Shown: positions 31,443-33,686 of the stretch, one piece after another
How the letters are laid out: each line of letters starts with the position of its first letter
Position numbering within the stretch: position 1 is the first letter of the stretch
DNA from: Litoreibacter meonggei
GTDB taxonomy: Bacteria; Pseudomonadota; Alphaproteobacteria; Rhodobacterales; Rhodobacteraceae
Direction: 5' to 3'
Length of the DNA stretch: 64,000 bases
Assembly (NCBI RefSeq): GCF_003663885.1
Contig: NZ_RCCE01000001.1
Location: 496,001-560,000, forward strand
Position numbers and translations under genes: made by a program
The notes under the pieces: model-generated
Database searches by the model: none
Told to the model about the DNA's origin: nothing
Seen by the model: the letters and a program-made list of their open reading frames with translations, nothing else

Positions 31443-31727
31443 TTACGCGCAAGCCCCTACGGTGGAGCGGATACCGCCGCCGGCTTGCTCGATCGCTTGC
31501 AGTTGGGCTACGGCCTCTTCCTGCACTTTATCGAGCTTCATATCTTTCCAGCCAGTGATTTTGCGGATTTCGGCGTGGGTGATGCCGTCAAAATCAATGC
31601 AGCCCACTTGCGCCATCGCCGACGCGTAACGCGCCAGATCAAAATCATCGACGCTGAGTTCAGGGGCGGGAAGGCAGGCGCTCAAAGTCATGGCGCCAGC
31701 AACGGCAACAGCAGAAAACTTTTTCAT
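31443..31727 (-). CDS. small lipoprotein coupled to nuoD (94 aa)
   Basis: Signal with lipobox LSAC (Cys18), then a short soluble domain with [20 protein letters not shown] and two further cysteines (GCID, GACA). The ATG overlaps the nuoD stop as ATGA and nuoE begins 39 bases after its end. I do not recognise a family. It is one of four lipoproteins spread through this operon. Confidence 0.72.
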
Positions 31728-32938
31728 CGGTCAATTTCTCCAAAAACTACGTCCATTGTTCCAATAATCGCGGCCACGTCGGCAAGCTGGTGGCCTTTGC
31801 AGATATAATCCATCGCCTGCAAATGCAGGAACCCGGGGGCCTTGATTTTGGCGCGGTAGGGTTTATTCGTCCCGTCCGCCACCAGATACACGCCAAACTC
31901 ACCTTTAGGGGCTTCGATGGGCACGTAGACCTCACCTTTCGGCACGTGGAAGCCCTCGGTGTACAATTTGAAATGATGGATGAGCGCCTCCATGGAGGTT
32001 TTCATCTCCGCGCGTGGTGGAGGGGTCATTTTGCCCCGCGCCATCACGTCGCCCTTCTCTACCCGCAGTTTTTCGATGCACTGGCGCATGATCGACAGCG
32101 ACTGGCGCATCTCTTCCATGCGGCACAGGTAGCGGTCAAAGCAGTCGCCGTTTTTGCCGACGGGGATTTCGAACTCCATCTCGTCATAGCACTCATAGGG
32201 CTGCGCACGGCGCAGGTCCCATGCAAGGCCGGAGCCGCGCACCATCACGCCGGTGAAGCCGTAATCGAGGATATCCTGCTCGGTCACGATCCCGATATCG
32301 GCGTTGCGTTGCTTGAAAATACGGTTGTCGGACAGCAGCCCGTCAATATCGCTGAGAACTTGCGGGAAGGTCGTCGTCCATTCCTCGATGTCGTCGAGCA
32401 AATCCTCCGGCAGGTCTTGATGTACCCCGCCGGGACGGAAATACGCGGCGTGCAAACGTGCACCGCAAGCCCGCTCGTAGAACACCATCAGCTTTTCGCG
32501 CTCCTCGAAGCCCCAAAGCGGCGGTGTCAGCGCGCCCACGTCCAAGGCCTGCGTGGTGACGTTCAGCAGGTGGTTCAGGATACGGCCAATTTCCGAATAC
32601 AGCACACGGATCAAGGATGCGCGGCGTGGCACTTCGGTGCCTGTCAGCTTCTCGATGGCCAAGCACCAAGCGTGCTCTTGGTTCATTGGCGACACATAGT
32701 CGAGGCGGTCAAAATACGGCAGGTTTTGCAGGTAGGTCCGGCTCTCCATGAGCTTTTCCGTGCCACGGTGCAGCAAGCCGATATGCGGGTCGCAACGCTC
32801 CACGATTTCGCCGTCAAGTTCCAGTACCAAGCGCAACACGCCGTGCGCCGCAGGGTGCTGAGGCCCGAAGTTGATGTTGAAGTTCCGGATCTTCTGTTCG
32901 CCCGTCAGGGCGTCGTCGAACTTGGAGCCGTCCATCAT
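31724..32938 (-). CDS. nuoD: NADH-quinone oxidoreductase subunit D
   Basis: The 49-kDa-type subunit, 404 aa, which forms the quinone-reduction site with NuoB and descends from the large subunit of NiFe hydrogenases. [21 protein letters not shown] (near the start; the His is at the quinone site) and the closing DVVFGEIDR are typical. Two ATGs in a row open the gene; GGGAG precedes the first by 8 bases. Its start overlaps the 47-aa ORF by ATGA, and its stop overlaps the next lipoprotein the same way. nuoC and nuoD are separate genes here. Confidence 0.97.
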
Positions 32939-33078
32939 GTGTTAGTCTCCCGAACAGCTTGACCAATCCCAATGTCGAGCATTTCGACATCCGCGATTTT
33001 TTTAAAAAAGGGCATTGCAGGCAACACCATCAACACCGCAGCAAACAAGCTTAGAAATTCGGTCGCAAATTCCATCAT
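32935..33078 (-). CDS. 47-aa small membrane protein between nuoC and nuoD
   Basis: A 48-codon frame: [20 protein letters not shown] opens a single hydrophobic helix of about 20 residues, followed by [11 protein letters not shown] and a polar tail ending RETNT. Its ATG overlaps the nuoC stop as ATGA (33078-33075) and its TGA overlaps the nuoD ATG as ATGA (32938-32935). GAGG lies about 7 bases before the start. Coupling on both sides and the clean transmembrane segment argue that it is a real gene, too short for usual gene callers. The function is unknown; a complex I accessory peptide is the natural guess. Confidence 0.65.
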
Positions 33079-33686
33079 TTCTTCGCCTCTTCAGCTTTCT
33101 CGTCACCCGGCATGATGTATTCCGCGCCCTCCCATGGGGACATGAAGTCGAACTGGCGGTATTCCTGAACCAGCTTCACCGGCTCATAGACAACGCGCTT
33201 TTCGGCTTCGTCATAGCGGACCTCGACATAGCCCGTGGTCGGGAAGTCCTTGCGCAGCGGATAGCCGCGGAAGCCGTAATCGGTGAGGATGCGGCGCAGG
33301 TCGGGGTGGCCGGAGAACATGATGCCGAACATGTCGAAAATCTCGCGCTCGAACCAGTTGGCCGCCGGATAGACCTCGTGCAGGGACGGTACAATCTCGT
33401 CTTCGCGGATCGCCATTTTCACGCGGATGCGGTGGTTCTGGTACATCGACAGGTATTGATAAACGACATCAAACCGCGCGTCGCGGGTCGGGTAGTCCAC
33501 CGCCGTGATATCCACCATGGTGGAGAAGCGGCAAGCGCGGTCGGTTTTCAGAAACTCCGAGAACGACACAAGCGAGCTGGGCGCGATATGCACGGTCAGT
33601 TCGCCAAATGCGATCTCGGTGGACAGCACGCAATCAGGGCGTTTCAGCTCTATGTGAGCCGCGAGTTCTTGAAGGGCAGCGGTCAT
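33075..33686 (-). CDS. nuoC: NADH-quinone oxidoreductase subunit C
   Basis: The 30-kDa-type subunit, 203 aa, in the hydrophilic arm near NuoB and Nuo[21 protein letters not shown] followed by [20 protein letters not shown] is the family signature. The ATG at 33686 overlaps the nuoB stop as ATGA; the 27 extra residues of the longer frame lie in nuoB and are rejected. Confidence 0.97.

Follow-up and report, generated by a model that had tools for sequence, protein, structure and literature searches.

Very short membrane proteins such as CydX, KdpF and similar peptides are stable parts of their complexes. The small open reading frame (ORF) analysed here resembles them in its length, its single predicted transmembrane (TM) helix, its place in an operon for a membrane complex and the ease with which it is missed, but differs in being patchy, in being swapped between species and in having no Pfam match above the cut-off. 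To our knowledge, none of the proteins NDUFS4, NDUFS6, NDUFA12 and CI-PIMT is a single-helix membrane peptide of such a kind. These four, the last of them a methyltransferase, are the extra subunits named for complex I of P. denitrificans in the available part of the report on its structure (PMC11522691); as the product of the small ORF would be, they are supernumerary components of complex I in an alphaproteobacterium. According to an excerpt of another study, two small hydrophobic core subunits escaped mass spectrometry (PMC8115037), which makes a lack of small peptides there weak evidence.

Translational coupling by termination and reinitiation offers a second comparison. In the accessible portion of one report, a spacing of about 20 nt nearly abolished coupling in six tested gene pairs (PMC10666635). 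The small ORF shares the ATGA overlaps of such overlapping pairs, here at both of its ends, and differs in being an optional gene placed between two neighbours that, in other species, directly overlap each other. A third comparison is provided by the slippage sites of dnaX, IS elements and spa13/spa32, for which excerpts of two papers describe a hairpin that in ribosomal slippage generally lies 5-8 nt downstream and, in spa13, an effect of slippage on the overlapping downstream gene (PMC4066793, PMC5009743). A slippery run is common to those sites and the small ORF, which unlike them lacks a conserved shifted product, carries only an A_AAA tetramer in the window and is a candidate for slippage. 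Older papers reportedly mention unidentified reading frames in the nuo operons of Rhodobacter and Paracoccus; they did not surface in our literature searches, in which neither the insert nor any variability of the nuoC-nuoD junction came up.

The window, that is, the whole 64-kb stretch of DNA analysed, carries on its minus strand nuoC (33075-33686) and, downstream of it, nuoD (31724-32938). An earlier note had described between them a 48-codon frame with one TM helix, joined to both genes by ATGA overlaps and preceded by GAGG, and all of these features are present in the sequence. The frame, supported by ORF reading, by relatives at nuoC-nuoD and by synonymous bias, runs on the minus strand from 33078 to 32935 and consists of 47 codons plus TGA, encoding 47 amino acids. 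Its ATG shares ATGA with the nuoC stop and its TGA shares ATGA with the nuoD start, so that both junctions show an overlap of the kind found in coupled pairs (-4 or -1 nt), and its location inside the nuo operon is that expected of a gene for a complex I subunit. A likely ribosome-binding site of the small ORF (GAGG, 33086-33089, minus strand) lies within nuoC, 7 nt ahead of the ATG, and that of nuoD (GGGAG, 32947-32951, minus strand) lies within the small ORF. The helix is predicted at residues 7-25 (33004-33060, minus strand; best 19-residue hydropathy window 1.92) and is directly followed by Lys-Lys. Basic residues mark the cytoplasmic side of membrane proteins under the positive-inside rule, on which basis we infer a single-span peptide with N-out/C-in topology. 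The small ORF has a GC content of 0.44; nuoC and nuoD have 0.58, and the 64-kb window has 0.60. The first 8 nt of the small ORF (ATGATGGA, 33071-33078, minus strand) recur identically at the nuoD start (ATGATGGA, 32931-32938, minus strand), and the gapless relatives L012 and L017 have one copy. A target-site duplication was considered on these grounds. However, start sequences are frequently shared between such ORFs and nuoD (4-7 nt in 65 of 91, at least 8 nt in 7 of 91, this case and others together), and nothing firm can be drawn from the repeat.

The same note had held the exact fit at both ends to be hard to get by chance, which was overstated. When the ends were fixed and the interior was dinucleotide-shuffled, 2,085 of 20,000 sequences (about 10%) stayed open, and 251 of 20,000 were open and carried a TM-like stretch. 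Among all gaps of 91-250 nt, an exact two-ended fit was found in 29 of 43 real gaps versus 76 of 430 shuffled ones. The excess in real gaps is real, yet 18% of the shuffled short gaps fit as well, and the two-ended fit of this single ORF, which exceeds chance moderately, is not very improbable and is weak evidence when taken alone. The putative gene status of the small ORF is a matter of comparative evidence, not of the fit.

Searched alone against 61 genomes, the window ORF gave a good match in the congener G008 (67% identity) and a weak one in G010; against 394 family genomes it gave no further credible match, and within its own genome its own locus was the sole match at E<=10. Relatives at nuoC-nuoD were collected by synteny, and eight of them formed profile A3, which retrieved 29 loci besides the window's from the 394 family genomes, five of them at nuoC-nuoD. 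Two of these five (G119 and G345) are rows of A3. The other three were new (G271, E 8.6e-9; G141, E 1.9e-4; G255, E 0.0077), with frames open and coupled at both ends, that of G271 sitting behind a 2-TM ORF. A match in G397 (E 0.0035) outranked that of G255, yet lay off the junction, as did the remaining A3 loci. Addition of the three new members yielded profile A4, with 11 members, in which the Lys-Lys columns are almost invariant. A4 gave six matches at E<=1.5e-9 in the 394 family genomes, the window's included and all at nuoC-nuoD; as these six are rows of A4, their E-values follow by construction. Apart from them, no match in these genomes fell below E 0.012, and of the eleven weaker ones (E 0.012-0.048) one, L179 (E 0.029), lay at nuoC-nuoD and ten elsewhere. 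Altogether, the ORF family was found at nuoC-nuoD in 12 genomes, representing at least six genera by handle, and at 4 of 19 congeneric junctions, the window being counted in both figures; a reading by eye of 51 additional distinct junctions revealed no new member. Among named species of Litoreibacter, L. ascidiaceicola carries a relative of the ORF. NuoD was detected at E<=1e-150 in 376 of the 394 family genomes, versus a strong match to the small-ORF family in 6 of 394. Thus, the small ORF is not kept wherever complex I is kept, and close species also differ.

Synonymous and nonsynonymous change (pS and pN) was computed frame by frame over a 24-codon core. In six pairs picked out of 21, in which L011 denotes the window's locus, frame 0 showed pS 0.89 and pN 0.31 for L014/L016 (p 2e-5), 0.87 and 0.34 for L108/L142 (p 3.5e-5), 0.84 and 0.39 for L011/L016 (p 0.002), 0.75 and 0.32 for L108/L113 (p 0.002), 0.73 and 0.40 for L113/L142 (p 0.01) and, as a weak bias only, 0.42 and 0.20 for the window pair L011/L014 (p 0.08). 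Frames 1 and 2 of the same six pairs were not significant, with no p below 0.18. Among all 21 pairs, in a comparison that was ungapped and anchored on Lys-Lys, with L050 one residue out of register, pN exceeded pS in two, and both values were nearly equal in several. Conservation of the C-terminal tail was limited to the closest pair. A search for synonymous-biased conservation in relatives, which the earlier note had proposed as a check, was thus answered positively in several pairs and in the ORF's own frame only. The note had also named breakage of the frame in close relatives as a reason to abandon the idea; in L014 and L016, congeners with closely related DNA, the frame is intact, and beyond these two the insert is replaced or missing in other relatives. 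Taken together, these comparisons indicate that the small ORF very probably belongs to a real small-protein family.

No match above the curated cut-offs was found for the window ORF in Pfam, NCBIfam or PHROGs, the best sub-threshold Pfam match being Antimicrobial12 (13.1 bits, cut-off 22). Profile A3 retrieved no PDB chain at E<=5, and a search for RNA families over 32700-33400 gave none at E<=1. A phage or plasmid origin was discarded, the best E-values being 4 for phages and 2 for plasmids, and PHROGs having no match.

The comparison of 224 distinct nuoC-nuoD junctions (173 + 51), among the matches listed, revealed that the small ORF is one of many occupants of this position. Two loci without one of the genes and 15 + 4 duplicates had been dropped, and nearer genera are over-sampled because genomes were taken in order of NuoD similarity. 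Among these 224 junctions, the gap was at most 10 nt in 57, 11-90 nt in 12 and more than 90 nt in 155, ranging from overlap up to 2 kb, with unrelated coupled ORFs inside. The tiled ORFs read there comprised 2-TM peptides, the single-TM family with Lys-Lys (KK) described here, other single-TM peptides, proteins that look by eye sulfotransferase-like, GFA-like or SnoaL-like, and combinations of these. In 80 named loci, gaps of at least 90 nt were found in 52 of 79 C-D, 58 of 74 D-E, 13 of 77 A-B and 7 of 78 B-C junctions.

Several of these occupants are recurrent. Sulfotransferase-like genes, so named by eye, occupy the nuoC-nuoD slot of six congeners (L018, L019, L020, L023, L026 and L027). 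A 2-TM peptide family with the pattern PMLKLLPHFGINK.WA....P.G...L.WVMAMKLQELEKR occurs often in the slot (e.g., L090, L099, L138 and L278), and the examples tested had no Pfam or NCBIfam match. A second type of single-helix peptide has a GP(L/E) motif, a basic tail and no A6+ runs (L088, L217, L222, L209 and L187). Single-TM peptides with a basic RVRV-like tail occur in L108, L179, L256, L100 and L229; two of these peptides, in L108 and L179, are similar to the KK family but lack the A run described below.

Turnover of the insert is visible among the closest relatives. In a nuoD tree of 19 congeneric loci, the window falls inside a clade of six (support 100/99) whose slots hold the KK ORF in three non-sister species, a 3-TM ORF in one, a 2-TM ORF in one and nothing in one, two inner forks of this clade being slightly below full support. 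L013 and L015, whose NuoC is 98-99.5% identical to that of the window, have unrelated ORFs in the slot, and the family ORF is replaced or absent in all of L012, L013, L015 and L017 (NuoC 94-99.5% identical). In another genus, the ORF is present in two of seven genomes (G119 and G439), where it is identical at 155 of 156 nt, compared with 91.8% identity over the last 500 nt of nuoC and 95.6% over the first 500 nt of nuoD. Over 1.4 kb each way, these two genomes share a single long near-identical stretch, extending from about 300 nt before the nuoD start to 200 or 300 nt past it, which comprises the ORF, about 150 nt on its upstream side and 200-300 nt on its downstream side. This tract points to a recent transfer of the insert by homologous recombination. 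No such signature was seen in the window's own pair.

Members of the KK family share a further feature. In the window, a run of seven A (AAA AAA A, 32997-33003, minus strand) encodes Lys-Lys and the first base of Ile, and 5 nt past it, within the distance at which hairpins follow known -1 frameshift sites (5-8 nt), begins a stem-loop, GATGTCGA-aatgc-TCGACATT (32971-32991, minus strand), whose stem is identical in L014, with a changed loop. An A6-A9 run after the helix (nt 60-90) was found in 8 of the 11 A4 members, with A7+ in 7 of 11, and is missing in L108, L122, L029 and the weak member L179. In a looser set of 15 the counts were 11 and 10, but this set is not an independent test, since L203, L199 and L226 were picked by eye, with Lys-Lys as a criterion, once the run was known, and L048 was not among the rows of the profiles. 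The Lys-Lys codons are biased to AAA (18 AAA and 2 AAG in the 11 members minus L029, which has no Lys-Lys at this place, versus 83 and 158 in the nuoC/nuoD parts of these loci, p 1.2e-6; 24:2 versus 91:196 in the looser set, p 1.1e-9), these p values ignoring relatedness. The looser set has 4.44 A7+ runs per kb; none occurred in the remaining ORF classes sampled from these junctions, namely nuoD starts (51.8 kb), nuoC ends (51.8 kb) and, within the slot, 2-TM ORFs (9.5 kb), other short ORFs (3.9 kb) and long ORFs (63.5 kb). On both strands of the 80 named loci, A or T runs of 7+ occurred at 0.032 per kb; in the 64-kb window there were five, versus 4.3 in a first-order Markov control, which indicates that they are not avoided genome-wide. 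In agreement with the negative half of a prediction made beforehand, 51 further junctions, in which no new member was seen by eye, had a single A6 run in their gaps, inside a sulfotransferase-like ORF.

The hairpin is less regular than the run. Several members have unrelated stems after the run and some have none, so that a sequence-conserved hairpin was rejected, stems differing between genera. Mean z at that place was -0.72 in 15 members, -0.28 in 252 2-TM windows and 0.01 in 672 nuoD windows, a signal that is suggestive only, ten offsets having been examined. A stem score of 6.5 was reached in 4 of 15 members versus 29 of 896 nuoD, 12 of 252 2-TM and 3 of 60 other windows of the same ORFs, a count that omitted stems more than 15 nt past the run, such as the 9-bp stem of L016. 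The window reads TTT AAA AAA ATC, with no X_XXZ_ZZN heptamer in the zero frame and only the Z_ZZN tetramer (A_AAA), whereas by codon reading the heptamer fits in L016, L113, L142, L203 and L226. Shifted frames yielded short unrelated tails and no conserved product. Fusion to NuoD by a -1 shift was dismissed, a stop preceding nuoD in 14 of 15 members of the looser set; only in L108 (Leisingera sp. ANG-Vp) is the -1 frame past the run open into NuoD, over 426 codons. The run and hairpin suggest, but do not show, programmed slippage, for which they provide a lead.

Several explanations for the insert have to be weighed against each other. The earlier note had spoken of a small complex I peptide, and a true accessory subunit bound to the membrane arm, as CydX is in cytochrome bd, would suit a gene between two subunit genes of the operon, start and stop overlaps that would allow coupled translation, and a single TM helix followed by Lys-Lys, with columns nearly invariant in A4. 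Such a subunit is nevertheless unlikely, given the patchy occurrence of strong matches, the replacement or absence of the ORF where NuoC is nearly identical, and an excerpt on the P. denitrificans structure in which no extra TM subunit is named (PMC11522691). What stands of the note's proposal is the coupled small membrane gene, favoured by the profile matches at the junction and by synonymous bias; its role in complex I does not fit a gene found in 4 of 19 congeners and 6 of 394 genomes and swapped in near relatives. No more probable is a mere spacer, whose frame would be open only so that ribosomes reach nuoD, the peptide being useless. The unrelated yet coupled contents of the slot, the freely varying tails and the overlap or very short distance reported as required for coupling in the accessible text of PMC10666635 would all agree with it, whereas the synonymous-biased change in the helix part and the three further members recognised by profile at nuoC-nuoD would not. 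Moreover, the 57 of 224 junctions without an insert, among the matches listed, indicate that a spacer is not needed.

Somewhat more doubtful is a slippage-controlled leader, in which the A run and hairpin would let polymerase or ribosome slip, truncating the peptide and altering the frequency of restart at nuoD. The confinement of A7+ runs to the KK family among the junction ORF classes sampled, their presence in most A4 members, the AAA bias of the Lys-Lys codons and the hairpins in several members speak for it, as does the under-representation of AAAAAAA in E. coli genes, in all frames, stated in the available part of PMC4066793. Against this reading, shifted-frame products are not conserved, the T AAA AAA of the window lacks a two-tRNA heptamer, the hairpin signal is modest, the run is missing in four members including the weak one, and 7+ runs in the window are near the Markov expectation. 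Finally, a chance open frame without product, which the shuffles remaining open in about one case in ten might suggest, is very improbable in view of the same family at nuoC-nuoD in other genera and of the frame-specific synonymous bias.

We therefore return to the reading that we consider probable from the comparison of genomes, namely that the small ORF is a true gene, encoding a peptide that spans the inner membrane once, and an optional occupant of an exchangeable, coupled nuoC-nuoD slot; an open spacer with any hydrophobic content is a less probable alternative. Ribosomes would finish nuoC, begin anew directly on the small ORF and do so once more on nuoD, and an insert would persist only as an open frame overlapping both neighbours. 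Indeed, since coupling needs overlap or a very short distance, an insert that keeps nuoD coupled has to be an open frame touching both neighbours, and the exact fit would be explained without the peptide acting in complex I. The peptide would enter the membrane close to freshly synthesised complex I and be at most accessory and non-essential. A bolder and rather improbable extension is that nuoC-nuoD is an operon-internal cassette slot moved by recombination in the flanking nuo genes, with the window's family using slippage at the A run and hairpin to set peptide completion and nuoD restart, and so tuning the supply of a core complex I subunit.

Of greater interest are the slot itself and the A run, a signature so far unexplained. 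Coupled cargo exchanged at a fixed junction of a core respiratory operon makes a tractable case of operon remodelling, and the slot would explain why inserts look perfectly fitted. It also exposes several unnamed families of small membrane proteins and allows testing whether inserts alter the ratio of NuoC to NuoD. The A run, if a slippage site, would give slippage a new regulatory role in respiration. The D-E junction is a second variable slot: in the window, a 94-aa ORF that appears lipoprotein-like by eye (31443-31727, minus strand) sits within the 320-nt nuoD-nuoE gap, has no Pfam match above the cut-off and overlaps the nuoD stop by 4 nt.
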